Shown one piece after another: positions 124 through 18,853 of a DNA stretch of 38,515 bases. Position 1 is the stretch's first letter, and each line of letters starts with the position of its first letter. The notes beneath the pieces are model-generated. The model searched no databases. It was not told where the DNA came from and worked only from the letters and a program-made list of their open reading frames with translations. The translations under genes were made by a program, and so were the position numbers. Origin of the DNA: Candidatus Cybelea tumulisoli (GTDB lineage: Bacteria > Vulcanimicrobiota > Vulcanimicrobiia > Vulcanimicrobiales > Vulcanimicrobiaceae); assembly GCA_003167155.1 (NCBI GenBank), contig PMTY01000124.1, forward strand, positions 28,472 to 66,986. Reading direction: 5' to 3'.

Positions 124-1980
124 TCACTGACCGCCGAAGCGTAGGCCTACGTCGAGAAAGGTTCGTCGCAGGCGGTCCTCAACGCCGGAATACCAGCGAA
201 GCCCACTTCCAATGGGTCCCGAGAGATCGCCATCCACGTGATAGAACGGCGCGCCGTCGAGCAAATCTCGCCGGTAAATTGCATCGAGCCTGATCCCGCG
301 GTTGGCATCATAGGTTAGCCAAAACGCGTTGACGGTGGGCGCCATGTTCCCATCGTAAGCCGTCGTCTCTCCATAGGCCGGGACCGTGTCGGTCACGTGC
401 ATCGTCCAGGCGCGAAGCGCGATCGCCGGCGCGACCTGCCAGATCGCGGAAAGGCCCAAAGAGGTGATGGTGCCGGACGATGCGCCGGCCACGCGCTGCG
501 TCGCCTGCTCGAGCGAGACTCGCAAGCGCGCCTGGTCGGTATACGTAAGCGCCTCGGCGAGAAGGGCGTTGCGCTCGTACTCCACCGCGTTTACATTTTC
601 GGAGTACGCGTATTCGTCGACAAAGGTCGGGAGCGTAAAAGAACCGCTGTCCTGGAGATCGACGCTCCATCTTTGATTTGGAAAGAGCTGCGCCTGAATC
701 GAAGGGAGCGCTAGCACGGCCTTTGCAGGCTGCGAAACTCCGCTCGCGCCGCCGGCGTAATCGATCCAGAAGGTTCCGACGCCCGCGGTGACGTCGTAAG
801 CTTGGCCGCTGGCATTCACTCCGGCGTCGGCTCGCGTCTGCGTCAGGTTCGCGCCGACGGTCAGGGGGTAGTACTCCTCTGGCTGGTACTGCTGGTAGTA
901 GAGCCCGCTCGAGGAGCGAATGCCGAGGTCCGCAAACGCCGATACCGCCCCGCTAGAGCGAACGCCGAGGTTCAGGCCTGAGTCCGACCAGGCCGCGATC
1001 GAGGCATCTTCGCCGGTGCCGAGCGCGTAGTTGCCGCGATCGAGAACGGCCGAAACGTACAAGTTCGCGAGTTGCGGATCGGCGAACGTCGCGTCGGCAA
1101 AGGAAAAGCTGCCGGCATACTGCGACCTCCCCAGTGCAAACGTACGCCCTTGCTCGCTGCCGGCTGCAAAGGCGAGCGATTGGCCGGCGCCCGGAGAGAA
1201 GCTCGCCGAAAGATCTGCGCGTTGGCGCGACTCCTCATCGTTGGAAAACGATCCAAGAACGGCCGCGAGATTATCCGTGCCGATCTGCGCGCGCGCGATT
1301 GCATCGCTTCCAAGCGTCCCTACCTGCCAGTTCGAATCGCTTCCAAAGGGATTTGCATTCACGATGCCGCCGCCGGCCTGATCGCCGTAGAGATAGGCGT
1401 TGCTCGCGTCGCTCATGGCTGTCGTTCGTTCGTACTGCGCCGGCACGAGCTCGTAAGGCGAGGTCCCGTCGACGATATCGTAGTTGGCGGCCCCGTCGTC
1501 GACCAGCAGCGAGCCGGTCGGCGACAGCCCACGATCGCTCAACCGGGAGCCTGGGTACGCGTCGACACTCTGCTGGAGCAGGGTAAAGGGGCGGAGCGCT
1601 AATGCCGATTCGACGTGCGCGTACGGCAGGCTCTCGAGATCCGCCGAGGAGGGCGAATCCGCGGCCAGCGCTTCGTAACGCTCGACGATCACGACGACCG
1701 GCTCTCCCGGACGTACGGAGGCGACCGCCGGACCGCAGTAGCGGCAGGTGACCAGGACCGAATCGACCCCCGAGGCAGCCAGCGCGAAGGTACCTGACGC
1801 ATCCGTCGTCGTGCGAAGAGGCGCTTGGTTCCCCCGGTGCCCGAGGACCGCGGCTCCGGCTACGGCAACCCCGCGCTGATCCCTCACGGCGCCGACGACC
1901 AGCGGCGTCTGAGCTCGCGCCGGCGCCGCGACGAACGTAGTCAAGAGCAGCGCCGTCGCGCACATCAGCCGGCGATTCAC
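124..1980 (-). CDS. TonB-dependent receptor-like outer-membrane protein
   Basis: This 618-residue protein looks like an outer-membrane beta-barrel of the carboxypeptidase-regulatory/TonB-receptor-like type. The GTG at 1980 is chosen because it gives a good signal peptide (MNRRLMCATALLL... ending APARAQ); an ATG at 1965 is an alternative. Residues of about 25-100 resemble a carboxypeptidase regulatory-like beta-sandwich (VVGAVRDQRGVAVAGAAV) with a CRYC pair. A plug-like stretch follows (GSLLVDDGAANYDIVDGTSP), then alternating aromatic and polar strands to the terminal FLDVGLRFGGQ. It is short for a full 22-strand receptor and no TonB box is obvious, so the substrate is unknown and it may be a non-transporting relative. 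The reading frame stays open to 2316, but that extension has no signal-peptide logic and runs antisense to the next genes. Confidence 0.7.
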   Translation of the reverse strand: MNRRLMCATALLLTTFVAAPARAQTPLVVGAVRDQRGVAVAGAAVLGHRGNQAPLRTTTDASGTFALAASGVDSVLVTCRYCGPAVASVRPGEPVVVIVERYEALAADSPSSADLESLPYAHVESALALRPFTLLQQSVDAYPGSRLSDRGLSPTGSLLVDDGAANYDIVDGTSPYELVPAQYERTTAMSDASNAYLYGDQAGGGIVNANPFGSDSNWQVGTLGSDAIARAQIGTDNLAAVLGSFSNDEESRQRADLSASFSPGAGQSLAFAAGSEQGRTFALGRSQYAGSFSFADATFADPQLANLYVSAVLDRGNYALGTGEDASIAAWSDSGLNLGVRSSGAVSAFADLGIRSSSGLYYQQYQPEEYYPLTVGANLTQTRADAGVNASGQAYDVTAGVGTFWIDYAGGASGVSQPAKAVLALPSIQAQLFPNQRWSVDLQDSGSFTLPTFVDEYAYSENVNAVEYERNALLAEALTYTDQARLRVSLEQATQRVAGASSGTITSLGLSAIWQVAPAIALRAWTMHVTDTVPAYGETTAYDGNMAPTVNAFWLTYDANRGIRLDAIYRRDLLDGAPFYHVDGDLSGPIGSGLRWYSGVEDRLRRTFLDVGLRFGGQ

Positions 1981-2014
1981 GGATTCTTTAGACTTTCGGC
2001 TATGATAAGAGTAA

Positions 2015-2272
2015 GTGTCAAGAACCCTCGTCCGCCCAGTCCTCGTCGCAGCGCTGCTCGCCCTTCTAATGATTTGCGGGCGCTTCACCGTGGCCGGCGC
2101 CGCCTCACTAGAGGATGCGCTCACCGGGGCCCTGGCGCCTTCGGCAGCCCCCTCGCTGTTGGGGCCGATTACCTCGGCAGGGCGCGTCGGCTGGGAATGC
2201 AAGCCGGAGCGGTCGGCGGCATCCGCCGGGTGGCACGACGCTGAGTTGCCTCGCGGCCCCTTTGGTCCTTGA
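2015..2272 (+). CDS. Small putative secreted protein
   Basis: An 85-residue frame starts with GTG at 2015. Its N-terminus is a convincing export signal: a short basic start (MSRTLVRP), a hydrophobic core (VLVAALLALLMICG) and small residues before AGAA. The rest is rich in Ala, Pro and Gly, with one tryptophan-cysteine patch (VGWECKPE) and no recognised domain. It stops at 2272, three bases before the ATG of the TPR gene, so co-transcription is plausible. It is divergent from the receptor-like gene, with 34 bases between the two GTG codons. The frame is short and lies opposite an open antisense frame, so it could be spurious; the signal-like start and tight spacing are the only support. Confidence 0.38.
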   Translation: MSRTLVRPVLVAALLALLMICGRFTVAGAASLEDALTGALAPSAAPSLLGPITSAGRVGWECKPERSAASAGWHDAELPRGPFGP

Positions 2273-2275
2273 CCG

Positions 2276-3088
2276 ATGCGTCTGCCGCTGGCCGTCGCCA
2301 TCATCTGGGGACTCATGGCGGCTGGCGCAGCGGCACAGAGCTATTCGCCGCAACGGCCGCTTCCGAGAACGACCTCCATGCCTGCGCTGCGCGCTTTGGC
2401 CGCGCAACGCGAGGTCGAGGAGCGCTTTAAGCTTGGAATCGATGCCGAAGCGCGCGGCGACTGGACCACCGCCGTTGCCGAATTCAAACGCATCGTCGTC
2501 CTAAATCCCCCCGAACCAAAAGGTTCGACCGCGCGCTACGATCTTGCCATCGCCTACGCGAATCTTGGCCGATATGACGACGCCGCCGGGGAGCTGCGCG
2601 CCGCCATCGCGCTCGATCCCGCCTTCTTAGCGGCGATGGCGAATCTCGTCTCCGTCGATCTTTCTCGGGGCGATCTTGCTGAAGCGCGCCAGATCGCCGA
2701 TCGCTACATAATGTTGGATCCGGACTCGGCGCGCGCGCTCTACTCGCGCGGCATCGTGGCGCTTCGGACCGGCGATGCCGCCACCGCTCGCGAAGATTTC
2801 GGAAAGCTGCTCCACAACAACGCGTCCTATGCCGTCGCGCATTACGATCTCGCGTTGGCCGAAGAACGTTTGGGCCACTACGAGTCCGCGGAACGCGAGT
2901 TGCGTACGGCGCTAACGCTGGCGCCGGCCTATGCGCGCGCGCGATTCGCGCTTGGCGTCGTTCTTCTGCGGGAAGGAGAGCACGGCGCGGCAAGAAACGA
3001 GTTCCAGCAAGCGACGGTCGACGCCGCGGGCGACCCCGCCCTGCAAAATATTGCTGCGGCGGCTCGCGATTCGATCCCGGCTCCGTAG
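2276..3088 (+). CDS. Exported TPR-repeat protein
   Basis: A 270-residue protein with an N-terminal signal (MRLPLAVAIIWGLMAAGAAAQ) followed by about six tetratricopeptide repeats from residue ~55 to the end. Typical TPR cores are visible: YDLAIAYANLGRYDDAAGEL, YSRGIVALRTGDAATAREDF and YDLALAEERLGHYESAEREL. Such proteins are periplasmic scaffolds for protein-protein contacts; no enzymatic motif is present. The gene follows a possible small secreted protein by three bases and ends 73 bases before the first cupredoxin gene, so it may be transcribed with that block or form a separate unit. Partners are unknown. Confidence 0.8.
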   Translation: MRLPLAVAIIWGLMAAGAAAQSYSPQRPLPRTTSMPALRALAAQREVEERFKLGIDAEARGDWTTAVAEFKRIVVLNPPEPKGSTARYDLAIAYANLGRYDDAAGELRAAIALDPAFLAAMANLVSVDLSRGDLAEARQIADRYIMLDPDSARALYSRGIVALRTGDAATAREDFGKLLHNNASYAVAHYDLALAEERLGHYESAERELRTALTLAPAYARARFALGVVLLREGEHGAARNEFQQATVDAAGDPALQNIAAAARDSIPAP

Positions 3089-3161: not shown

Positions 3162-3743
3162 ATGTCAAAACGAATCGCCGCTCTCTCATTGGCGGCTGTC
3201 GCCGCCGGACTCGCCGCCTGCGCCGGACGCGACGCGAACCAGGCCGGCGGAAACTCTTTCGCGCTTCCATCCTTTAGTAAAAGCGTGTCGATCACCGCAA
3301 CGCTGCCGAAGGATACCATCGGCGAAGAACTGCCGACCGAAGGCGTCGGAACGGTCGACGACACCTATTGGAAGGCAACGCTGGGCGGATTCACGCAGTC
3401 GAAGTATGCCCAAGCTCTCGGCTTTCCGCCCGGTACCAAGCTTACGCTGATGAATCTTTCGGCGGACATCACGCACACGCTCGACTACGTTAAGAAAATT
3501 AAAAAGCCGCCGGCAAACTTCCCGAACAATCCCAACCTCCCGGTCACGGCCTCAGGCGGCAAATTTGGCAAAGGCTACGCCAGCGGCCCCATTTCACCAG
3601 GCAAATCCGTAACCATCATGTTGGCGAAAGCCGGCATTTACTTGATTGGCTGCGCCTTCCATTATGGTGAAGGCATGCACACGGTGTTGGTCATCAATAA
3701 GAACGCAACGCCGGGACCCGAAGGCACGCCGCCAGCGCAGTGA
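3162..3743 (+). CDS. Cupredoxin-fold lipoprotein (first of three)
   Basis: A 193-residue predicted lipoprotein. ATG 3162 is set by the GGAGG at 3153-3157 and by the lipobox LAAC (Cys20). The C-terminal half is a plastocyanin-like module: His105 in ITHTLDY, then GCAFHYGEGM with Cys164, His167 and Met172. The Cys-x2-His-x4-Met spacing equals that of plastocyanin, so all four type 1 copper ligands are present. The family carries single electrons or binds copper in the periplasm. The frame is open back to 2931, but that part lacks a signal and overlaps the TPR gene. A weak -10-like TAGGAT lies at 3125-3130. The stop overlaps the next start (GTGA), so translation is probably coupled to the cupredoxin-SCO gene. 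It could be an electron carrier or a copper-binding chaperone. Confidence 0.85.
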   Translation: MSKRIAALSLAAVAAGLAACAGRDANQAGGNSFALPSFSKSVSITATLPKDTIGEELPTEGVGTVDDTYWKATLGGFTQSKYAQALGFPPGTKLTLMNLSADITHTLDYVKKIKKPPANFPNNPNLPVTASGGKFGKGYASGPISPGKSVTIMLAKAGIYLIGCAFHYGEGMHTVLVINKNATPGPEGTPPAQ

Positions 3744-4828
3744 AGTCGGCAAAACTCGCGATCGCTCTCGCGATCGTTGCGCTCGGCGCGGCCGCGGCGT
3801 GTACGAACGGCGGAGGGCTGGGCAGCATTAATAGCGGTGGAGGCGGGACGCCTTCACCGCTCCCTTCGGGCGGAATCGGGGTCGCCATCCCGACCGGGAA
3901 GATCGGCGTTGAAAACGATCCGGTCTGGGGAACCGTCAGCGGATACACGCAAGAGCAGACATCGCAAATCATGGCGTTTCCGCCCGGTGCAACCGTGACG
4001 ATTACGAATCTGTCGTCAACGACTCCGCATACGCTCAACGTAATCGGAGTAGGCGGCACGCCGCCGCCGAACTGGCCGCAAAACCCCAGTCTTTCGTTCT
4101 CCCCAAGTGGAAACGGGGTCATGGGCGCGGACTATGCGACCGGCTCGCTCAATCCCGGCAGCAGCGTCAAAGTCAAGTTGAGCAATCCGGGCATCTATCT
4201 CCTCGGCTGCGCGTACCACTACATTGAGTTCAGCATGCGCGACGTCATCCAGGTTGTAGCCGGCGCAACGCCCGGGCCGACGGCATCTCCAGGTCCCGGC
4301 GGATACGCGCCGCCGGTGAGGAAGGCGCGACCCGCCCTAACGCAACGCGAACCGCATCTGATCGACCAGCGCGGACATCGCTTCACGCTTTCGTCGCTGC
4401 GCGGAGAACCATTGATCGTGACGTTCGTCTCGGCACACTGCACCGACGCCTGCCCTTTAATCAACGCCCAGTTCGCGCAGGCCGCGCAGCGCATCGAGCA
4501 CGATCGTCTTGCGGCGAGGCTGCTGACGATTACTTTGGATCCGGAGCACGATTCCCCGCAAACGATGCGCGAGCTGGCGCAACGATTCGATGCGGACCCA
4601 CGCCACTGGCTGGTAGCGGGCGGTTCGCGCTCGGACGTGCACGCCGTGATGCGCGCGTTCGGCGTCATCTCGATTGAAGGAAAGCCCGGTTCCAACGATC
4701 GTCACACGACCTTCATCTACGCCATCGACCCCAACGGCAATCTCGCGCAAACGCTTTTGGCCAATACCGCAACGCGGGACGACATCCTCGACGGACTTCG
4801 TACCGGACGTTGGAGAACGCACGCATGA
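3740..4828 (+). CDS. Cupredoxin-SCO1/SenC fusion protein
   Basis: A 362-residue exported two-domain protein starting with GTG at 3740, which overlaps the upstream stop. Residues 1-21 form a signal with a possible but weak lipobox (AAAC, Cys21). Residues of about 45-173 are a cupredoxin module with His97 and GCAYHYIEFSM (Cys157, His160, Met166). Here Cys-x2-His-x5-Met is one residue longer than in plastocyanin. A Pro/Gly linker (about 175-200) leads to a thioredoxin-like SCO1/SenC domain with CTDAC (Cys234, Cys238) and the distal His322 in DRHTTFIY. These are the copper ligands of SCO proteins, which deliver copper to cytochrome oxidase CuA or act as thiol-disulfide copper chaperones. The fusion suggests direct copper transfer or electron exchange between the domains. 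No oxidase genes occur in the window. Confidence 0.88.
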   Translation: MKSAKLAIALAIVALGAAAACTNGGGLGSINSGGGGTPSPLPSGGIGVAIPTGKIGVENDPVWGTVSGYTQEQTSQIMAFPPGATVTITNLSSTTPHTLNVIGVGGTPPPNWPQNPSLSFSPSGNGVMGADYATGSLNPGSSVKVKLSNPGIYLLGCAYHYIEFSMRDVIQVVAGATPGPTASPGPGGYAPPVRKARPALTQREPHLIDQRGHRFTLSSLRGEPLIVTFVSAHCTDACPLINAQFAQAAQRIEHDRLAARLLTITLDPEHDSPQTMRELAQRFDADPRHWLVAGGSRSDVHAVMRAFGVISIEGKPGSNDRHTTFIYAIDPNGNLAQTLLANTATRDDILDGLRTGRWRTHA

Positions 4829-5283
4829 CGCGACAAACCTGGACGACGCTCCCCTTGATGCTGCTCGCCGCGTGCACCGCGGGAGGCATTCCAACCTCCT
4901 CGGGCGGCGCCGGCGGAGTAACGATCGACATCAACCTGACGCTGAGTCAGCCCGTGCAGACACCGTATGGTTTAAGCGGCGGATTTACGCCGGCGATCGT
5001 TACCGTGCCCGTCGGCTCGCAGTTTCACTTCACGAACACCGATAGTTTCGCGCACACGGGGTCGTATCTCGGGAGCCAATTCACGCAGTTCCCCGCCGGC
5101 TCCCCGCTCACGCAAAAAGCGACGACGCAGTTCGGCAGTACGCTCTCGGGCGGGTTCAGCAGCGGCGCTCTGCAGGCGGGCACATCGTCGCAGACGATTA
5201 CGGCCGACCGGGCGGGAACGTATCTGTTCGGGTGCTTCTTCCATTACGGCGCGCCGATGCGGGGGGCGATCATTGCGCAGTAA
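4825..5283 (+). CDS. Cupredoxin-fold lipoprotein (third module)
   Basis: A 152-residue predicted lipoprotein. ATG 4825 overlaps the upstream TGA (ATGA), and the lipobox LAAC gives Cys17 as the lipidated residue. An alternative TTG at 4810 would add five residues. The mature part is one cupredoxin domain: a conserved PVGSQFHFTN strand, His77 in FAHTGS, and GCFFHYGAPM with Cys137, His140 and Met145, again with Cys-x2-His-x4-Met spacing. It is shorter than the first cupredoxin and ends soon after the last ligand strand (RGAIIAQ). The three modules look like diverged paralogues from local duplication. The gene overlaps the following cytochrome-porin gene by 11 bases, which argues for one transcript and a shared role in copper-based electron transfer. 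Confidence 0.83.
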   Translation: MTRQTWTTLPLMLLAACTAGGIPTSSGGAGGVTIDINLTLSQPVQTPYGLSGGFTPAIVTVPVGSQFHFTNTDSFAHTGSYLGSQFTQFPAGSPLTQKATTQFGSTLSGGFSSGALQAGTSSQTITADRAGTYLFGCFFHYGAPMRGAIIAQ

Positions 5284-6403
5284 GGCTGCCGCCGCAGGGC
5301 TTGCGGTGCTCTTCCTCGCGCTGGCCTGCGCGCCGGCCCGCGCGATTCCGATCTTCGCGCAACGCTACCACTTCAAGTGCGGCCAGTGCCACAGCGTGCT
5401 ACCCGAACTTAATGCGTTCGGGCGTTATTTTCGCTCGCACGGTTACCGGCTGCCGTTGCCCGAGCACGGAACGACGATCTTCGCGTTGCGCTACCAGTTG
5501 GAATACGACAAAGAGCCGGCAGCCGGGTCGCGGGAGTTTACACCCGGCGGCATCATTTTGGGCAGCGCGAACGTCGGACCGATCACCGCGTATCTCCACT
5601 ACGGCTTAGGAGCGGGCGGGGGGCCGGGTGGAGTATTCTTGCTCTTTGCGGCCGGCTACGATGCACACACGCAGACCCTCGTTCGCGGCGGGTTGATCGA
5701 GCTTCCGCTCGCGCAATCGCCGGGTGAACGCCTCGACGATCTGCAGCAATACGGATATTACGGCGCACACGTGGGCCTGAATAACGTGCCGCTCTCCTCG
5801 AACCGCTGGGGCCTGCAAATCGAACGGACCTTCGGGCACCTGACGGTGGACGGCGTGGCGGCGTTCGGGGCTTATCAGGGCGCGGCGTACGGCGGGAAAC
5901 CCGTACCGACGGGCGAGACGACGTGGTTTCGCACACCGGAGCTGAGCGCGTGGCTCAAAGACACGCTCGTGCAAGGGCACTACGGTGAGTTCGACATCGG
6001 AGGAACCGCCATGGGCGGAACGCTCGGCGTTTTGCCGACGGGGCGGCTACCCTTCGCCGACCTCTACGAACGCTACGGCCTGCTCGCGCACGCCACCTAC
6101 GACAATCTCGATCTTCAGGCCGAGCAATGGTACGGTGACGACCACGATTCCGACGGGCTTCTGACCAATCAGTCTTCCAGAGGAGGCTACGTGCGGTTGA
6201 AATACTATCCGATCCCGCACGCGTATTTCGGCCTCCGTTACGATGCGTATGCCAATCCCTACATCACTCGCGATTTCGTCTACTACGCGGCGGTGCAGAT
6301 CGCTCCGTGCCGCGTTCTGATGCAAGAGGTTCAGTCGCCGGGCCAGCACCCGTACCTCAGCGGCGCGTTCACGATCGCGATTCCACCGCCGTTGAAAAAC
6401 TAG
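5273..6403 (+). CDS. Cyc2-like monohaem cytochrome-porin fusion
   Basis: A 376-residue protein starting with TTG at 5273, inside the end of the upstream gene and just after a G-run. A signal peptide ends near ARA (residue 24). Next comes IPIFAQRYHFKCGQCH with one c-type haem motif CGQCH (Cys36, Cys39, His40), then LPELNAFGRYFRSHGYRLP. This order of FA(R/Q), CXXCH, P-x-L-x-x-FGR-x-F-x-x-x-GY is typical of Cyc2-type fused cytochrome-porins and of a broader uncharacterised family sharing the same N-terminus. The remaining ~310 residues alternate aromatic and polar residues with Gly-rich turns, as expected for an outer-membrane barrel. Cyc2 proteins pass electrons from extracellular Fe(II) to periplasmic carriers. 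Three cupredoxin modules upstream would be suitable partners. Iron oxidation is inference; the barrel could equally serve another redox substrate or copper. Confidence 0.72.
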   Translation: MRSKAAAAGLAVLFLALACAPARAIPIFAQRYHFKCGQCHSVLPELNAFGRYFRSHGYRLPLPEHGTTIFALRYQLEYDKEPAAGSREFTPGGIILGSANVGPITAYLHYGLGAGGGPGGVFLLFAAGYDAHTQTLVRGGLIELPLAQSPGERLDDLQQYGYYGAHVGLNNVPLSSNRWGLQIERTFGHLTVDGVAAFGAYQGAAYGGKPVPTGETTWFRTPELSAWLKDTLVQGHYGEFDIGGTAMGGTLGVLPTGRLPFADLYERYGLLAHATYDNLDLQAEQWYGDDHDSDGLLTNQSSRGGYVRLKYYPIPHAYFGLRYDAYANPYITRDFVYYAAVQIAPCRVLMQEVQSPGQHPYLSGAFTIAIPPPLKN

Positions 6404-6415
6404 GAGAGACAGACG

Positions 6416-7084
6416 ATGCGAGTGCTCGTGGTTGAAGACAATGCCGCCGTCGGCGATTCCATCGTGCGGATGCTGGAAGCGCGACGATATGCGGCCAACG
6501 TCGTCTCCGACGGTGAAACAGGCCTCGATCACTTGGTGAGCCGCAGCTACGACGTTGCGGTCGTCGACGTAGGACTGCCCGGCATCGACGGCTTCACGTT
6601 GGCGCGAAATGCTCGAGCGGCCGGAGTTCAGACGCCGATTCTGATGCTCACCGCGCGCGATGCAGTCGAGGATCGCGTGGCCGGACTCGAGTGCGGCGCC
6701 GACGACTATTTGGTTAAGCCGTTCGTTGAAGAAGAGCTCATCGCTCGCGTCGGCGCGATCCTTCGCCGCGCCGACCGCCCGCTGCTCGGAGTGCTCGAAG
6801 TCGGAGGGCTGCGCGTGGATCTCCCCGCTCGGAGCGTGACCTACGAGGGCAAACCAGTGGCATTGGGGGCGACGGAGTTTCGGCTCTTGGAGTTCCTAGC
6901 CCGCAACGCCGGCATGGCGCTCTCCCGCGCGCACATCGTCGAGCGTATCTGGGATTACGACTTCGATGGCTCGAGCAACATCGTCGACGTCTACGTCAGC
7001 CAACTACGGCGCAAGCTGGGAAAACTCGGTGCGAGTGGTATCATCGAAACGGTATGGGGAATCGGTTACCGCATAAAAGCTTGA
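6416..7084 (+). CDS. OmpR/PhoB-family response regulator
   Basis: A 222-residue DNA-binding response regulator. The receiver domain (about 1-115) has the acidic pair Glu7-Asp8, phosphoacceptor Asp51 (VVDVGLPGIDG), Thr79 and Lys101 (YLVKPF). The C-terminal winged helix (about 125-220) has the usual ATEFRLLEFLARNAG, the recognition-helix stretch NIVDVYVSQLRRKLG and the wing ETVWGIGYRIKA. ATG 6416 follows a GGAGAG ribosome site. The gene begins 12 bases after the cytochrome-porin gene and overlaps the kinase gene by four bases. It therefore probably belongs to the same transcript and controls the cupredoxin/cytochrome block, although no operator repeat was identified. It resembles the QseB/CusR type in layout; the signal is unknown. 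Confidence 0.93.
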   Translation: MRVLVVEDNAAVGDSIVRMLEARRYAANVVSDGETGLDHLVSRSYDVAVVDVGLPGIDGFTLARNARAAGVQTPILMLTARDAVEDRVAGLECGADDYLVKPFVEEELIARVGAILRRADRPLLGVLEVGGLRVDLPARSVTYEGKPVALGATEFRLLEFLARNAGMALSRAHIVERIWDYDFDGSSNIVDVYVSQLRRKLGKLGASGIIETVWGIGYRIKA

Positions 7085-8001
7085 TCGCTCGCACGGCTGC
7101 CCTCTACCTCTGCGTTTTCGTCTGCGTCCTGGCCGCACTTAGTATCGGCGCCTATGAGTTTGTGGCGCGCGAATACGCATCGTTGCTCGCACCTGCACTG
7201 AGCACGCCCGAAGGAGCCGGTGCGTTGAGGACGGCGATGCATCGGGTCGCCGTCACGATCGCCGAAATCGACGCACCGCTCGTCATCGTCGTCGCAATCG
7301 CATCGTACTTCTTAGCCCGCACCGCGATCGCGCCGCTGGCAGCGGCGCGCCAACGAGAGCGGCGCTTCTCGGCCGATGCCGCGCACGAGTTGCGCTCTCC
7401 GTTGACGGCCATTGCAGCCGTCGCGCAGGCCGCGCGTGCGGGCGCGACGGAGCAGAGTCGCGCCTCGTTCGAAGCGATCGCGCGCAGCGCGCTCGAAGCC
7501 TCGGCCGTCGTGACCGACCTGCTGACGCTGGCCCGCGATCCGGCGCGACGCGCGTTGCAATGCGAGCCGGTCGACTTAGCGGCGATCGTCACTCTCGCCT
7601 CGCGCGATACGCAGCCGCTCGCGGACGCGCGCAACGTGCGGCTCGACGTCGCGCCGGGTAGCGCGATCGTCGACGGCGACGAACGGCGTTTGCGCGAACT
7701 CTCGGTGAACTTGCTCGACAACGCCATTCGTCACGCCCGTCGGGGCGTGCGCATCAGCTCTCGCCGCGCGGGCCGCCTCTGCGAAATCGTCGTCGAAGAC
7801 GATGGCGACGGCATCCCCCCAAGCGAGCGCGAGCGGGTCTTCGAACGCTTTTATCGCCGTTCGAATGACGGCTCGGGCACGGGACTCGGCCTCCCGATCG
7901 TGCGCTGGATCGCATCCGCCCACGGCGGCGCGGTCGAGATCGATCGATCTTCCGACGGCGGGGCGCGGTTTGTCGCAGCCTTTCCCGCGCGCGAGTCCTA
8001 G
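7081..8001 (+). CDS. Membrane sensor histidine kinase
   Basis: A 306-residue kinase paired with the preceding regulator. The TTG at 7081 makes a TTGA overlap with the regulator stop; an in-frame ATG at 7054 would add nine residues. TM1 spans about 5-25 and TM2 about 65-82, enclosing a short ~40-residue periplasmic loop without Cys or Met/His clusters, so it is not an obvious metal sensor. A degenerate HAMP-like TAIAPLAAARQRERR leads to the H-box FSADAAHELRSPL (His102). The ATPase domain has an N-box (NLLDNAIRHA), G1 (DDGDGIP), an F-box (FERFYR) and G2 (GTGLGLPIV), so it should be active. Its stop codon lies within the left arm of the palindrome at 7997-8166. It probably senses a membrane or redox cue through the transmembrane helices or a partner protein. 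Confidence 0.9.
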   Translation: MIARTAALYLCVFVCVLAALSIGAYEFVAREYASLLAPALSTPEGAGALRTAMHRVAVTIAEIDAPLVIVVAIASYFLARTAIAPLAAARQRERRFSADAAHELRSPLTAIAAVAQAARAGATEQSRASFEAIARSALEASAVVTDLLTLARDPARRALQCEPVDLAAIVTLASRDTQPLADARNVRLDVAPGSAIVDGDERRLRELSVNLLDNAIRHARRGVRISSRRAGRLCEIVVEDDGDGIPPSERERVFERFYRRSNDGSGTGLGLPIVRWIASAHGGAVEIDRSSDGGARFVAAFPARES

Positions 8002-8218: not shown

Positions 8219-9730
8219 ATGCCATTCCGATCGCTTCGAGCGTTCGTCGACGCGTTGCGCAAGGCCGGCGAGCTTCACGTCATCTCGGCCAGCGTCGACC
8301 CCCGGCTAGAAGTAAGCGAAATCACGAACCGGGTCGTCAAGGCCGGCGGGCCGGCCCTGCTCTTTTCCGACGTCGCGGGCTCGGAGTTCCCCGTGCTCAC
8401 CAACCAATTCGGCACGCATCGGCGGATGGCGATGGCTTTAGGGGCGCAGAGCCTGGACGAAGTGGCGGGCCGCATTCGAGCCCTTCTCGACTTCAAACCG
8501 CCGTCGGGTTCCGCGTTAGAAAAACTGACGGGCGCGCTGCACTTCGCACCGCTGGCCAATGCAATTCCAAAAATCGTTCGCGACGGCAGCGTTCATGAAG
8601 TCGTGATCGAGCAGCCCGATCTCACGAAGTTGCCGGTCTTGACGACGTGGCCGTTGGATGCCGGACCGTTCATCACGCTGCCGCTGGTCATTACCAAAGA
8701 TCCGCGCAGCGGGCGCTCGAACGTCGGAATGTACCGGATGCAGGTCTATAACGCGACGCAGACCGGGATGCACTGGCAGCGACACAAACACGGGCGCGCG
8801 CATGCCGACGCGTGGGGCCGATCGGTTCCGGTCGCCGTCGCAATCGGGACCGATCCGGCGCTCACGTATGCAGCGACCGCCCCGCTTCCGCCGATGCTCG
8901 ACGAGTTCGCATTTGCGGGTTTTTTGCGGGGAAAGCCGGTGGAACTGACGCCGGCAAAAACCGTCGAGCTGATGGTTCCGGCCGACGCCGAGTTCGTGCT
9001 CGAAGGATACGTCGACAATGAGGATCTTCGGATCGAGGGACCGTTCGGCGATCACACCGGCGTCTATAGTTTGGCGGACCGCTATCCAACCTTTCACGTA
9101 ACGTGCATCACGCACCGCCGCAATCCAATTTATCCCGCGACCGTCGTCGGCAGGCCGCCGATGGAGGACGCGTGGCTTGGCAAAGCAACGGAGCGTATCT
9201 TCTTGCCGTTGCTGCAAGCGATGCTTCCCGAGGTCGTCGACATGAATCTGCCGGTTGAAGGCGGATTTCACAATCTTGCGATCGTCTCGATTCGCAAGTC
9301 CTATCCGGGCCACGCGAAAAAGGTCATGAACGCGCTTTGGGGGCTCGGTCACATGATGATGCTGACGCGAACGCTCGTCATCGTCGATGCCGATATCGAC
9401 GTGGCGGACCCCCGCGAGGTCGCATGGTACGTGCTCAACAATCTCGCGCCGGAGCGCGATATCGTGATGATGCCCGGTCCGGTAGACGACCTCGATCACG
9501 GCTCCTACAACATCGCGTACGGCACGAAGATCGGCGTCGACGCCACCCGCAAAGATGCGTCGGAGGGTTACACGCGCGAGTGGCCTCCCGACATGGTCAT
9601 GGACCCCCAGACGCGCCGCCTGGTCAGCGAGCGTTGGCGCGACTACGGGCTCGATACCATCGCACGCTCGCTCTGCGCAAACGATTGGTCGGGACAGGGG
9701 CCGGCCGCCTACGCCCGGCTGATGAAATGA
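8219..9730 (+). CDS. ubiD: UbiD-family decarboxylase
   Basis: A 503-residue member of the UbiD family of prenylated-FMN-dependent (de)carboxylases, of the usual length for the family. Visible hallmarks are the cofactor/metal-binding stretch SNVGMYRMQVYNATQTGMHW, the following HKHGRAH, and the acidic catalytic region EDLRIEGPFGDHTGVYS, with the EGPFG-D/E-x-TG signature. The C-terminal part has the family DDLDHGSYN and a conserved KIGVDATRK stretch. The next gene encodes a UbiA prenyltransferase with ATGA overlap, so the pair probably acts in quinone synthesis, either on polyprenyl-hydroxybenzoate or in the futalosine-type menaquinone route (MqnL/MqnP-like). No UbiX flavin prenyltransferase is present in the window. 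An unrelated aromatic-acid decarboxylase role remains possible. Confidence 0.92.
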   Translation: MPFRSLRAFVDALRKAGELHVISASVDPRLEVSEITNRVVKAGGPALLFSDVAGSEFPVLTNQFGTHRRMAMALGAQSLDEVAGRIRALLDFKPPSGSALEKLTGALHFAPLANAIPKIVRDGSVHEVVIEQPDLTKLPVLTTWPLDAGPFITLPLVITKDPRSGRSNVGMYRMQVYNATQTGMHWQRHKHGRAHADAWGRSVPVAVAIGTDPALTYAATAPLPPMLDEFAFAGFLRGKPVELTPAKTVELMVPADAEFVLEGYVDNEDLRIEGPFGDHTGVYSLADRYPTFHVTCITHRRNPIYPATVVGRPPMEDAWLGKATERIFLPLLQAMLPEVVDMNLPVEGGFHNLAIVSIRKSYPGHAKKVMNALWGLGHMMMLTRTLVIVDADIDVADPREVAWYVLNNLAPERDIVMMPGPVDDLDHGSYNIAYGTKIGVDATRKDASEGYTREWPPDMVMDPQTRRLVSERWRDYGLDTIARSLCANDWSGQGPAAYARLMK

Positions 9731-10575
9731 GAGCCGTCGCCTTATTCTTGCGCGAGATTCGCCTCGAGCACACGCTCTTCGCGCTGCCCTTTGCCTACGT
9801 CGGCGCAATCCTGGCGGCCCACGGCCTCCCGACCCCGGCGCAACTCGGATGGATAACGCTTGCCGTGCTCGGCGCTCGAACGGCGGCGATGGCGGCGAAC
9901 CGCTTTCTCGACCGCGAAATCGACGCCCGCAATCCGCGCACGGCGCGGCGAGCGCTGGCGAGCGGTACGCTGCCTTCCTCGACGATGCTCTGGGCGACCG
10001 TAGCCGGACTCAGCATTCTTTTATGGGCAGCATGGATGCTCAATCCATTGTGTTTGAAGCTCTTGCCGATTGCCGTCGTCCTTTTGCTGATCTATCCGCT
10101 TTGCAAGCGCTTCACGTGGCTCACCCATTTTGTGCTGGGCGCAGTCGATGGTTTGGCACCGCTGGGAGCCTACGTCGCGATCGCCGGAAAGATCACGCTG
10201 CCCGCCCTTGCGCTCTTCGCGGCGGTCACGATCTGGGTTGCGGGGTTCGACATCGTCTATGCGCTCATGGACCTGTCCGTCGATCGCGAGCAAGGGATTT
10301 CGTCGCTCCCGGTACGTTTTGGCGAGCGCAGCGGACGCTTCGTGCCGATCCTGCTGCACCTGGCCATGCTCGCGCTGCTCACCGCGGCCGGACTCCTCGA
10401 CGGCGCCGGCCGGCCGTACTATCTCGGCATCGCCGCCCTGGGGATTCTCATCGTGTATGAAGAGCATCTCTTTCGCAGCGGCGCCAATCTGTTCGTCATC
10501 AACGAACGGATCTTTCGCTCGAACATGGCGTTTTCGGTCGTCTTCTTGCTGACGACATTGGGAGCGTACCGATGA
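9727..10575 (+). CDS. ubiA: UbiA-family prenyltransferase
   Basis: A 282-residue polytopic membrane enzyme that joins a polyprenyl chain to an aromatic ring. The ATG at 9727 overlaps the UbiD stop; a longer frame from 9337 lies inside ubiD and is rejected. Both diphosphate/Mg-binding motifs are present: NRFLDREID (Asn58, Asp62, Asp66) and DLSVD (Asp182, Asp186), with about eight to nine hydrophobic helices between and around them. The (E)HTLFALPFAYVGAIL start is typical of 4-hydroxybenzoate polyprenyltransferases and of MqnP. With UbiD upstream, the substrate is a hydroxybenzoate-like or naphthoate-like acid. The gene is translationally coupled to the next gene by another ATGA overlap, an unusual partner for quinone synthesis. 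Confidence 0.92.
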   Translation: MRAVALFLREIRLEHTLFALPFAYVGAILAAHGLPTPAQLGWITLAVLGARTAAMAANRFLDREIDARNPRTARRALASGTLPSSTMLWATVAGLSILLWAAWMLNPLCLKLLPIAVVLLLIYPLCKRFTWLTHFVLGAVDGLAPLGAYVAIAGKITLPALALFAAVTIWVAGFDIVYALMDLSVDREQGISSLPVRFGERSGRFVPILLHLAMLALLTAAGLLDGAGRPYYLGIAALGILIVYEEHLFRSGANLFVINERIFRSNMAFSVVFLLTTLGAYR

Positions 10576-12889: not shown

Positions 12890-14137
12890 ATGCATTCCCC
12901 CAAGCGCCGGCCCAGACCACACAACCCGATGCCCGAATCGCGCTACGAGGTGCTCGCGCTCTTCACCGGCGCGATGATCGGTGCTTCGCTTTGCATCATG
13001 TCGACGGGCGCGCTCATGCCTTTTTTTAAGTCGGCCCTTCACCTCGACCAGGCACAACTTGGATGGCTGCTCTCCATCCAGTTCATCGGATCGGTCGCGA
13101 TGACGTCGGTCGCCGGCCTCCTGACCGACCGCTTCGGCGACAAGACGGTCGTGCGTTGGACCGGACTGCTCATGGGCCTGTCGCTCATTGCAGCCTCCCT
13201 GGTTGCGAGCTTTTCTTGGCTCCTGGCCTGGCTGTTCGTCTACGGAATCGGCTACGCCGCGGTAACGCCCGCGGGTTGCCACGCCATCATTTTCTTTTTT
13301 AAAAAGGCCGACCGCGGCCTCGCCATGGGGATTCGCCAGTGCGGGGTTCCGATCGCCGGCGTTATTGGTTCGCTGCTGCTGCCGGCGATAGCGCTGCGCT
13401 CCGACTATCGCGAGGCCCTCGCCGCCGCCGGCGTGTTTACGCTGATCGCAACCGCGATCGCTTCGCAGTTTTATCGCGAGCCGCACGAGTTGGAGGGCGA
13501 GCGCGTATCGCTGCGCACCATGCTAGCCGAAATGGTGCAGATCGCTCGGGAATCTCGTCTCATCCTGTTGACGCTTACGTCGATGATCTTGATCGCCGGT
13601 CAGCTCGCTCTGATCGGATTCCTTACTTTGACGCTCGTGCATCGCGCCGGTTATCCGTTGAGCTTAGCGCTGGGGCTCTTCACGCTTTCGCAAGTCGCGG
13701 CAATCTTCGGCAGGCTCTCGTGGGGATGGTTGAGCGACCATCTCTTTGCGGGAAGCCGGGCGCTGCCGCTCGCGACGGTCTGCGTGCTCGTTGCGGCGAT
13801 CGCGTTTGCATTCGCTTCGGTCACCGCGGGAACGCCGGTGTGGTGGGCCGCGTTCTTGGCGGCCGCGCTGGGTTTTACCGCGGAAGGCTGGCTTGGCGTG
13901 AGCGTCATCGGCTTTGCGGAGATCGGCGGCGAGGAACGCTCGGGCAGCGCGCTCGGCGTGGGCCTGACGTGGACGCTGCTGGCGGCCTTTGCAACGCCGG
14001 CGCTCTTCGGAGCGCTGGCGCAAGTGCACGGATTCGAGGTTGCCTGGCGCTGCTTGGCGATACTTCAGCTACTCGGCGTCGTGCCCGCGTTACTTGCCAG
14101 CCGCGGCGTAATGCCGCTGCCTTCTACGGAAAGCTAA
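12890..14137 (+). CDS. MFS transporter
   Basis: A 415-residue major facilitator with 12 predicted helices. The first two helices ([40 protein letters not shown]) flank a motif-A loop [15 protein letters not shown], the usual D-R-x-G signature between TM2 and TM3. A second copy-like loop [15 protein letters not shown] sits mid-protein. ATG 12890 gives a basic, Pro-rich leader; ATG 12929 ([12 protein letters not shown]) is an equally possible start, and neither has a strong ribosome site. The overall pattern resembles the CynX/NarK-like anion and small-molecule porters, but the substrate cannot be assigned. It is divergent from the small membrane protein, leaving 44 bases for a shared promoter region, and its stop overlaps the convergent phosphoesterase gene by four bases. 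Confidence 0.9.
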
Positions 14138-15486
14138 TAGTCGACGTTCTCGGACGAATCCGGCTGTTTGAGAAAGTAGCTTCTGGAGAGTGGCGCCTCG
14201 ATCGGCTTGAACGGCATGGGCGCCTGGTTAAAGTCGAAACAGTCGGAGAGGTCGTCGGACCGGACGTCGGTTGTGCCCAGCGAGGGCAACCCGAACGCCT
14301 CCTCGACGAACTTTAGCATGCTGCCGAACTCGTGCTGCGCGTGAGAGACGTAGTGTTGCTTTGCGTACGGAGATATGACGACCAGCGGTACGCGAAACCC
14401 GAGCTCGTACGAGTTGTATTGCGGCGGCGCAACGTGGTCGTACCAGCCGCCCCAGTCGTCCCACGTCAAGAAAATTGCCGTATGGTCCCAATACGGGCTC
14501 TCGCCGATGGCATTGACGACGGATGCGACCCACGACGGCCCGGTCCCGTTGGTACCCCCGGCGTGGTCCGAAGCTTTCCCCGTGGGTGTCAGCCACACGA
14601 CGTCGGCGAGCCGTCCCGCGGCGATGTCGGTGAGAATCGTCTTGGGTGGAGCGACGACGCGCGTTGCGAACTCCTTGCTGTTCCGAAGATGTAAGATCGC
14701 ATCCGGCGCCTCCCAGAGCCCGGCTCCCAGGTGCTCTTCGTAGTAACGCCAGCTCAGCGACTTACGGTCGAGCAAGTCCATGAGCGTCAGCCGGTTGAAA
14801 CACGGATAAGTCCCCTGGTCCTCGTGTCCGGACGGATCGATTAGCAACACATACGAGCCGGGTGGCGAATCGCAACCGCCGGTAAATCCGCCCGCTGGTG
14901 AGAGCGGGTTTGAGGCCGCGCGCAGCTGCGATCCGTTGCTAACCGTGGAGGTTCCGCTGATCATGTACTGGTGTGCCGGAAAACTCGGGCCTTCGTTGGT
15001 TTCGAACATTCGATCTCCAAACGTATATCGCAAGGCCATCTCGAAGTACGGCTCGACTTCCTCGCGCGGCACGTATCCATAGGCGCGGAGATCGGGAGGA
15101 GGACAGCTCTTTCCCAGGTGGCATGAGGATCTCACCTCGTTAAAGCCGTTGAGCTCGCCGTTGGCGCGTTCGATGAGATACGCGCTGTGCGAGTGACTGA
15201 TATCGTAAGGGGCGGTAAGCGCTACCCGCCTAAGAGTGACGCTCTCTCCTTGAGAGTTTTTACCGCTCCGCACGGTGTCGGCACCACGAAGCCCGTTGAA
15301 GAGATCGTCGGGCGTGCGGTTCTCCTGAACGATGATGACGACGTGCGTGATCTTTGATGCTCCGCCGAATCTTGCTGCCGCCAAGCTCGGAATCAGTGAG
15401 CCGCCGGGCACGTTGGTTTGCGTGGTCCAGCGATCTCCGCAGCCGCAGAGCGCTAGCGCGGCGGTAACGGCCGCAAGCAGCTTCAT
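14134..15486 (-). CDS. Phosphoesterase-family lipoprotein
   Basis: A 450-residue predicted lipoprotein ([16 protein letters not shown], lipobox LCGC, Cys15) of the phosphoesterase superfamily that includes bacterial phospholipase C and acid phosphatase AcpA. The N-terminal [19 protein letters not shown] carries the metal-binding Glu-Asn of the family. Later signatures are [31 protein letters not shown] and [20 protein letters not shown], containing the Asp and His residues that bind the active-site metals. It would hydrolyse phosphate esters at the cell surface or in the periplasm, with unknown substrate. Its ATG overlaps the stop of the upstream GloVer-repeat gene (15483-15486), so the two form an operon. 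A second, longer family member lies divergently at 16943. Confidence 0.86.
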
Positions 15487-16712: not shown

Positions 16713-16942
16713 CGATCCCCTAAGCTTCGCTGCGACGAGGCCCCTTCTTTTTGCCTCGCATTACGATGTCATTAACCGCCCTAAGAAAACCAAGTAGGCT
16801 AAGCTTAAGTTCTCCCAGGAGAAACTTAAGATGCGATTAGCAAAAGTCGCTCCTTCTCCTCATTGTGTGCCAGCTTGCGTCTTTGCTAATTTTGAAAGCA
16901 TACGCGCCCTCACTTTTTAGAAAACCGGAAGGTGGTAACATA
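16713..16942. promoter_or_regulatory. Divergent promoter region with CTTAAG palindrome
   Basis: These 230 bases separate two divergently transcribed lipoprotein genes (starts at 16712 minus and 16943 plus). At 16804-16830, CTTAAGTTCTCC is followed by an inverted copy GGAGAAACTTAAG with one extra base in the right arm, giving a near-perfect dyad centred at about 16817. The position suits a shared operator, or a hairpin in a leader. A ribosome site (GGAAGGTGG) lies at 16928-16936, before ATG 16943. No convincing -35/-10 pair could be fixed by eye, and no small gene is evident. Confidence 0.5.
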
Positions 16943-18853
16943 ATGCGTCGTTTCGTGTCGTACATCGTAATCCTGACGGCATCGTGGGCATTGGCGGGAT
17001 GTGGAGGGCCCAGCGGAGCCTCCTCGGTCGCGCCGGTGACATCGCAGAATACCGCGGATGCTGCAGCTCGGCTCAGGATTGCAGCCTTGGTACACGGCAA
17101 GGTCAAGCACGTTTTCGTGCTCATTCAAGAGAACCACACCTTCGATCAAATCTTTGGACTCTTTCCCGGCGTCAACGGCCAGTACGTCGAAAACCTCGGG
17201 ACGTACCTCGCGCAAGAAACCGATTGCCAGTACGATCCCGAAACGCTAGGCTGTCAGCGTCCGTTCCTGATCTCGCCGAACACCAACAGCCCCAACTACG
17301 TCGCGGATGCGCCCGATATCACCGGCGGCAACAACGGTCGATACGACCAAGAGGTGTCGATTGACCGCGGCAAGATGGACGATTTTCTCGTCGATGCCGA
17401 GGCCGGCCAGCCGGTGCTCGGGCCGACCCCGAGCCCACAGCAGGTCGAAGCGCACAACGAGTCGATCGGCATCGAAGGCGTCTATGACTGCGATACCGTC
17501 CCATACCTCTGGTACTACGCGAGAAGCTTTACGCTCTTCGATCACTACTTCCAGGCCAACACGGGAGACTCGACGCCGAGCAACATTCAGCTCTTCTCGG
17601 GTCAAATCGGACAGACTGAGGCCGCGGCGGGCGAAGGCACACTCTCCCAGCCGTTAGCCAGCGGTGGTTATACGGATGGCGTGCCGATCTCGAACGACGA
17701 CAATCCGCCCCCGGCGGACCTGCGATTCCCAATTACATCGTATAGCGGGGATAGCGGCACCTTCCAAAGTTATGCCACGATGCCGGTGCTGCTCAACCCG
17801 AATATGGATCGCCTAGCCGAACAGAAAAGGGTCGTCGGCTACGAGGGTCGCGACATCACGAAGGAAGGGAACACGAACCGCCAGTCTGTCCCCTGGGCCT
17901 GGTATGAAGAAGGACTCACTACCGCAAACGCTGGCTTCTCCGCGCATCATACCGCGCCGCTCTACTTCGATTACATCAATAACCCCGGTTCTGGGTTCGT
18001 GAACAAGAAAACGCTGCGCGATAACGTCGAAAACAACGGTTTCATTTCGGACATCAAAGGCGGGAAGCTTCCGGCCTCGGGAGTCTTCTGGGTCAAAGGC
18101 GGAAATGAAAACACCTACGGCTTAGTGCCGGCCGACCCGATCTTCACGCAAAACTCTTCCGGCAGTAAGTATTACGTCGGCGACGACGATCACCCCGGCA
18201 GCGGCAGCTCCGACCATCAGGTAGCTGAGGCTTATCTCGCCGAAGTTATCAACGCGATTGCGCAGAGCAAATACTGGAAGGACTCGGTCATCGTCGTAAC
18301 GTGGGACGACAGCGGCGGTTTCTACGATCACCTGCCGCCGCCGGGCTTCGGACAGACGTGTCCGCAGGATAAGAGTGGCTCGGAAGAGGGCTACCCGTGT
18401 GGCGATGGCGTTCGCTTGCCGGCCATGGTAATCTCGCCGTTCTCCAAGACGGGAGTCGTCGTTCACGATCTCGCCGATCACGGCTCGGTCTTAAAACTGA
18501 TCGAAGCGGTCTTTGGCTTGCCGACGTTTGCCTCGTTACCGGATGAAGCTAAGGGCGTCTCGGTCGGTTTGTCGCCCGCGGACGGCGATAGCGCGAGCTC
18601 AAACTTGTTGGATGCGCTCGACGAAAGCAAGCTCCAAGGCGGCGGGCTGAACCCTCCGAGGCTGGCGGAGATTTCCTCGCCGGCCGTTCCGCCGAGCATG
18701 AGTTGCTCCTCGCTGGGAATCACCCCGATCCCCTCACCCACATCGCTTCCGAGCCAATACGGTTCGTACGAGACGGCCGGATGGTACCTGGCACAGACGC
18801 TCAAGGCGAACCGCAAGGTTAAGCTGCCTCCAAGCAAGGACGATGGCGATTAG
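16943..18853 (+). CDS. Phosphoesterase-family lipoprotein (phospholipase C-like)
   Basis: A 636-residue predicted lipoprotein. ATG 16943 is supported by GGAAGGTGG upstream and by the signal MRRFVSYIVILTASWALAGC, where LAGC is the lipobox (Cys20). The catalytic frame of the phospholipase C/acid phosphatase superfamily is visible: HVFVLIQENHTFDQIFGLFP, DHYFQANTGDSTPSNIQLFS, VIVVTWDDSGGFYDHLPPPG and LPAMVISPFSKTGVVVHDLA, followed by DHGSVLKLIEAVFGLP. It is longer than the relative at 14134 because of insertions in the middle and an extended C-terminus rich in Pro and Ser. It is likely to act on phospho-substrates at the surface or periplasm; true phospholipase C activity is not shown. It is divergent from the GloVer/phosphoesterase operon and ends 22 bases before a strong hairpin terminator. 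Confidence 0.87.
   Translation: MRRFVSYIVILTASWALAGCGGPSGASSVAPVTSQNTADAAARLRIAALVHGKVKHVFVLIQENHTFDQIFGLFPGVNGQYVENLGTYLAQETDCQYDPETLGCQRPFLISPNTNSPNYVADAPDITGGNNGRYDQEVSIDRGKMDDFLVDAEAGQPVLGPTPSPQQVEAHNESIGIEGVYDCDTVPYLWYYARSFTLFDHYFQANTGDSTPSNIQLFSGQIGQTEAAAGEGTLSQPLASGGYTDGVPISNDDNPPPADLRFPITSYSGDSGTFQSYATMPVLLNPNMDRLAEQKRVVGYEGRDITKEGNTNRQSVPWAWYEEGLTTANAGFSAHHTAPLYFDYINNPGSGFVNKKTLRDNVENNGFISDIKGGKLPASGVFWVKGGNENTYGLVPADPIFTQNSSGSKYYVGDDDHPGSGSSDHQVAEAYLAEVINAIAQSKYWKDSVIVVTWDDSGGFYDHLPPPGFGQTCPQDKSGSEEGYPCGDGVRLPAMVISPFSKTGVVVHDLADHGSVLKLIEAVFGLPTFASLPDEAKGVSVGLSPADGDSASSNLLDALDESKLQGGGLNPPRLAEISSPAVPPSMSCSSLGITPIPSPTSLPSQYGSYETAGWYLAQTLKANRKVKLPPSKDDGD

Follow-up and report, generated by a model that had tools for sequence, protein, structure and literature searches.

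A cupredoxin-SCO1/SenC fusion protein in a conserved operon of cupredoxins and a predicted cytochrome-porin in Eremiobacterota

The canonical role of SCO proteins is in assembly of the CuA site of cytochrome oxidase (PMC9145763); little is known of SCO clients other than this enzyme. The PCuAC signature, H(M)x10Mx21HxM, is carried on a cupredoxin fold (PMC9145763), and in blue and red cupredoxins the gap between the ligand Cys and the following His is two to four residues (PMC4059628). The rus operon of Acidithiobacillus has the order cyc2-cyc1-cup-coxBACD-rus (PMC10654088, PMC4059628). Cyc2, a fused cytochrome-porin of Fe(II) oxidizers, is described by the motif AXPXFAR[QK][TY], a single CXXCH, a PXL four residues further on, a length of at least 365 residues, and a 16-strand barrel that has been likened to OprO/OprP (PMC8406198). 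A Cyc2-like protein was reported by BLAST from an acid mine drainage genome of Eremiobacterota (PMC8357290), and may belong to the family of the barrel protein described below. The Eremiobacterota are a phylum of soil and peat with almost no cultured members, Vulcanimicrobium alpinus being one that has been cultured (PMC9758169).

Our analysis concerns a window of 38,515 nucleotides from Candidatus Cybelea tumulisoli (contig PMTY01000124.1 of assembly GCA_003167155.1, positions 28,472 to 66,986), in which a cupredoxin and an SCO domain are encoded as one protein within a cluster of copper-protein candidates. The order of the genes is cupredoxin 1, fusion, cupredoxin 3, CxxCH/barrel protein, response regulator, and kinase, and the features of the region are as follows.

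124..2316, minus strand: divergent protein of outer-membrane type, with CarboxypepD_reg and Plug matches that fall below the Pfam cut-off; syntenic
2276..3088, plus strand: TPR protein, first gene of the plus-strand cluster; syntenic
3162..3743, plus strand: cupredoxin 1, lipoprotein (LAAC lipobox), CAFHYGEGM; stop overlaps the start of the fusion
3740..4828, plus strand: fusion gene, 362 aa in one open frame (lipoprotein signal, cupredoxin, linker, SCO1/SenC)
3740..3802, plus strand: lipoprotein signal peptide to the lipobox C21 predicted from sequence (...GAAAAC-TNGGGL)
3872..4267, plus strand: cupredoxin domain, residues 45-176, ligands H97, C157, H160, M166 (alignment, AlphaFold2, profile comparison)
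4268..4348, plus strand: linker, residues 177-203, consisting of the old cupredoxin C-terminus TPGPTASPGPGGY and then a segment replacing the SCO signal peptide
4349..4807, plus strand: SCO1/SenC domain, residues 204-356, C234-x3-C238 and H322 (PF02630, PDB matches, alignment)
4825..5283, plus strand: cupredoxin 3, lipoprotein with CFFHYGAPM; above the PF00127 cut-off; always the next gene after SCO
5273..6403, plus strand: monoheme CxxCH and predicted 16-strand beta-barrel protein (cytochrome-porin type), 376 aa, TTG start
5378..5392, plus strand: heme-binding motif CGQCH, with AIPIFAQRY before it and PEL after it
6416..7084, plus strand: OmpR-type response regulator; syntenic
7054..8001, plus strand: sensor histidine kinase (HisKA and HATPase_c) with no sensor domain recognised; syntenic

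The frame from 3740 to 4828 is open throughout, which bears out the sequence-only reading that had placed a cupredoxin and an SCO1/SenC domain on a single polypeptide, and every metal-site residue named in that reading (H97, C157, H160, M166, C234, C238, and H322) is exact in the alignment. The fusion starts at a GTG that shares bases with the stop codon of the cupredoxin gene before it (GTGA). The protein has four cysteines in all: C21 of the lipobox, C157 of the type 1 copper site, and C234 and C238 of the SCO domain. Wherever the N-terminus is readable, the fused and split members of the genus share the sequence ACTNGGGL around C21. Sequence and AlphaFold2 also agree on the Pro/Gly linker that had been described between two domains with intact metal sites; the model shows the two domains, with residues 178-201 between them at low confidence. 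All seven metal ligands are invariant in the aligned rows that have the respective domain. Values of dN/dS against three close relatives were 0.07-0.11 for the cupredoxin domain, 0.15-0.28 for the SCO domain, and 0.25-0.75 for the linker, the low values for the two domains indicating that both are under purifying selection. A scan for promoters and terminators found nothing above chance.

Assignment of the SCO half is unambiguous. PF02630 matches it with an E value of 7.6e-21 and 74.9 bits (cut-off 22.8) over model positions 5-133 of 134, its PDB sequence matches are SCO proteins, and the CxxxC and distal His (C234, C238, H322) are invariant in 31 of 31 rows, so that the SCO site is complete, as had been proposed. 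The best Foldseek matches of the fusion are human SCO1 and the Arabidopsis and Bradyrhizobium ScoI proteins (TMt about 0.74-0.81), which have the thioredoxin fold. The statement that SCO proteins normally stand alone holds for direct relatives but not for the phylum, in which a CusF-SCO fusion was found: in this relative (L075:1837-2796, minus strand) the SCO domain lies behind a CusF-type domain (PF11604, 39.9 bits), and there is a hydrophobic C-terminal segment. The genome of the window has a second SCO gene (L062:5365-6471), whose product is extended at the N-terminus by about 150 residues that have no assigned family. The window itself also encodes a 592-residue protein with a DUF255/DsbH-type thioredoxin domain (PF03190; 25492-27270, plus strand) and, close together on opposite strands, two genes of the PF04185 phosphoesterase family (14134-15486, minus; 16865-18853, plus).

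The cupredoxin half is more divergent. Taken alone it has no Pfam or NCBIfam match above the curated cut-offs, and ten of 20 relatives of the domain match PF00127 weakly, at E values up to 1 (best 4e-4). Profile comparison by hhalign showed it to be homologous to cupredoxin 3 (probability 98.7, E 2e-16), which does pass PF00127, and its profile weakly finds the type 1 copper protein 6kol (E 0.0054), with pseudoazurins and plastocyanins matched only at 0.045 and above. AlphaFold2 places a beta domain at 77-172 with strands at moderate pLDDT, and the listed Foldseek matches were all taken by the SCO half. The His, Cys, His, Met set of type 1 ligands is present in order and is invariant in 28 of 28 rows. 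The Cys-x2-His-x5-Met spacing that had been called unusual is real but is not exceptional, as it varies from x4 to x6 between His and Met among orthologs with the ligands unchanged; x5 thus represents natural variation and is no sign of a lost site. The two residues between Cys and His lie within the range given above for blue and red cupredoxins. The PCuAC signature is absent from the domain, which has only two His (97 and 160) and no HxM. On these sequence comparisons, this half appears to be a real but divergent cupredoxin with a predicted type 1 copper site.

The genes from cupredoxin 1 through the CxxCH-barrel gene overlap in the same direction by four, four, and 11 bases, and the gene block is conserved across Eremiobacterota loci. 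Cupredoxin 3 is the next gene after SCO in all 31 distinct loci, and the CxxCH-barrel gene then follows in 29, with a second copy of cupredoxin 3 intervening in the other two; tandem duplicates of cupredoxin 3 at this position were seen in some members of the genus (L012:7523-8429, L033:2577-3480, L034:577-1480). An upstream cupredoxin is present in 25 of the 31 loci, and none was detected upstream in six. Since SCO keeps cupredoxin 3 and the cytochrome-porin even where the upstream cupredoxin is lacking, its original client was probably outside the polypeptide to which it is now fused. Cupredoxin 3 and the barrel protein would then be the oldest partners of SCO, the fused cupredoxin having joined later on its 5' side; loss of the upstream cupredoxin from the six loci would give a similar pattern. 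Directly after the two-component system, and syntenic in many relatives, lie two genes (8219-10575) that we take from their translations to be UbiD-like and UbiA-like, so that a pair for quinone synthesis may adjoin the operon. A second cluster in the same genome (contig C86, L060:12555-14802) contains a cupredoxin 1 paralog, a further member of the CxxCH-barrel family (13297-14445), and a free 116-residue CuA-like protein (COX2 match, motif CQMFCGPGHESM), and adjoins a sigma/anti-sigma-like pair.

The barrel protein at 5273-6403 shares several traits with Cyc2 (PMC8406198): a single CxxCH near the N-terminus, a PEL four residues downstream (CGQCH-SVL-PEL), a length above the 365-residue minimum, 16 predicted strands, and AxPxFA. 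These strands come from a low-confidence AlphaFold2 model (mean pLDDT 65), the Foldseek matches of which are porins, and weak Porin_O_P and Cytochrom_C matches were found in some members of the family; a PDB profile search with the cytochrome-porin returned no relative, plasmids gave no match to it, and the operon-type protein falls in no Pfam or NCBIfam family. Unlike in Cyc2, the diagnostic FAR[QK][TY] reads FAQRY, which is invariant in 29 aligned operon orthologs, and the operon has no cyc1 or cox genes. Because its diagnostic motif reads AIPIFAQRY, we have not filed the protein as Cyc2, and it appears instead to be a monoheme cytochrome-porin of Cyc2-like build; for the same reason, iron oxidation by it is only a lead. 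The canonical AXPXFAR[QK][TY] was found in no locus fetched. Of 149 Eremiobacterota genomes, 116 encode related CxxCH and barrel proteins, frequently more than one each, and many of these proteins in the phylum carry AxPxFAQ[QRAS]Y.

The distribution of the fusion was examined in the same 149 genomes and in genome contigs. Of 17 genomes of the genus with a detected locus, 15 carry the fusion and two have separate adjacent genes; one more genome of the genus, 65% complete, gave matches to paralogs only. The genomes with the fusion belong to different species, with identities as low as about 65%, and the sharing of the fusion by 15 genomes rules out an assembly artefact. Among the relatives examined outside the genus no fusion was found, the cupredoxin and SCO being encoded there by separate adjacent genes. 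Equal open-frame lengths had hinted at independent fusions in two genomes (G124 and G130); these were ruled out, as the reading frames are separate. On plasmids, no place covered 80% of the fusion, and among the matches listed only the SCO half aligned.

The fusion is the joining of two neighboring operon genes, and the steps from split to fused form can be followed. In the two split members of the genus (L014/L043 and L015/L044) the cupredoxin ends in TPGPTASPGxGGY and a stop, right after which follows a separate SCO gene in another frame and with its own signal peptide. In another genus (L013/L042/L065), cupredoxin and SCO share a reading frame that is interrupted by one TAA. The cupredoxin tail TPGPTASPGPGGY persists in most fused proteins, followed by linker at the place of the former SCO signal peptide, and as the SCO domain has no signal peptide of its own it now depends on the export signal of the cupredoxin. 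In a tree built from SCO, cupredoxin 3, and cytochrome-porin, a single change divides fused from split rows, but with low branch support (56/65), and monophyly of the fusion is therefore weakly supported. The split, single-stop, and fused forms make a clean case of operon neighbors turning into domains.

The reading that we favor, at even confidence, is that the protein is a lipid-anchored chimera whose SCO domain matures the copper proteins of the operon, whose cupredoxin carries electrons, and whose fusion serves mainly as a tether. It would act in the periplasm with the two other cupredoxin lipoproteins and the outer-membrane monoheme cytochrome-porin, the SCO domain maturing the copper (possibly also the heme) proteins, with cupredoxin 3 as its likely original client, and the fused cupredoxin carrying electrons between cytochrome-porin and periplasm; through the lipid anchor of the cupredoxin, the SCO chaperone would be held beside its clients. 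What we infer here, namely copper loading, membrane location, the SCO client, and the donor and direction of electron flow, would make up a dedicated copper-dependent electron-transfer chain, as the conserved operon suggests. This reading is supported by the invariant sites, the constrained domains, the overlapping genes, the constant order of SCO and cupredoxin 3, and the split-to-fused series, and is weakened by the lack of a curated family for the cupredoxin half, the presence of COX1 and COX2 elsewhere, the low confidence of the barrel model, and the weak monophyly of the fusion.

Other readings overlap with this one, and the confidence given to each need not add up to a whole. The fusion may be neutral, a stop codon having been lost between two proteins that continue to work independently. 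This would fit the loosely constrained linker, the split form retained in two genomes of the genus, and the earlier adjacency of the genes; persistence of the fusion across different species, together with the reliance of SCO on the export signal of its neighbor, makes such a neutral origin unlikely. Direct coupling of the domains, in which the cupredoxin hands copper to SCO in the manner of PCuAC or SCO loads the cupredoxin tethered to it, would make use of two copper sites on one chain and a flexible linker of about 27 residues. We consider such intramolecular transfer quite improbable, given that the six SCO loci with no detected upstream cupredoxin nevertheless always have cupredoxin 3 downstream and that the domain has type 1 ligands rather than the HxM signature of PCuAC (PMC9145763).

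SCO has a thioredoxin fold and may be both reductant and chaperone (PMC9145763), and with the cytochrome-porin following in 29 of the 31 loci it could act as a thiol-disulfide reductant that keeps the cysteines of the CxxCH, or of a cupredoxin, reduced for cofactor attachment; the distal copper-binding His would be superfluous in a pure reductase yet is invariant in 31 of 31 rows, and the cupredoxin that always accompanies SCO likewise points to copper, so that this role seems distinctly unlikely. The canonical role in CuA assembly, with the operon location incidental, finds a possible client in the COX2 and COX1 genes on another contig of the genome. It is very unlikely here, however, as this SCO has no link to cox genes and, wherever the locus was examined, accompanies cupredoxin 3 and the cytochrome-porin; the genome also has its second SCO gene. 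A system for copper stress or copper homeostasis, with CopI-like plastocyanins and a copper-sensing two-component system, would fit the syntenic response regulator and kinase, and in Rubrivivax copper induces the plastocyanin-like periplasmic CopI (PMC7558416). Among the operon genes searched we recognized neither a copper exporter nor a multicopper oxidase nor a known copper sensor domain, and a heme-bearing barrel is no known part of copper resistance, which leaves this explanation highly improbable.

Three cupredoxins, an SCO protein, a cytochrome-porin, and a two-component system form a compact candidate electron-transfer system, and an operon that ties SCO to specific cupredoxins points to a testable client other than an oxidase. 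A wider proposal, rather improbable at present, is that a copper-dependent outer-membrane chain with its own SCO maturation factor is widespread in the Eremiobacterota and oxidizes an extracellular donor such as Fe(II), the maturation factor having become part of the carrier in one genus. If so, metal loading and electron transfer would be united on one molecule in that genus.

Comparison of the fusion with described proteins and systems shows both shared and distinct elements. Like SCO1/SenC/PrrC proteins (PF02630), its SCO domain has the thioredoxin fold, the CxxxC and distal His, and a full-length family match, but it is fused to an N-terminal cupredoxin, is exported by a cupredoxin lipoprotein signal, and has cupredoxins and a cytochrome-porin, not cox genes, as its neighbors. 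With the plastocyanin and pseudoazurin cupredoxins (PF00127) the fused domain shares the His...Cys-x2-His-xn-Met arrangement, a modelled beta domain, and a weak profile match to 6kol and pseudoazurins; it differs in the x5 (x4-x6) spacing from His to Met, in falling below Pfam cut-offs, and in having SCO attached. In the rus operon an outer-membrane cytochrome-porin is likewise encoded with periplasmic cupredoxins, whereas here there are three cupredoxin lipoproteins and a dedicated SCO with no oxidase genes alongside, and iron is at most a possible substrate. SCO fusions with cytochrome c domains were reportedly described by Banci et al. in 2007. No cupredoxin-SCO architecture turned up in the open papers searched, the sequence search having covered the phylum and plasmids. 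In the CusF-SCO fusion of the same phylum, SCO likewise follows a small copper-binding domain, but CusF is a copper-trafficking domain and not an electron-transfer cupredoxin, and lineage and context are separate. Each domain belongs to a known family, and what sets the protein apart is the pairing of cupredoxin with SCO inside this operon.
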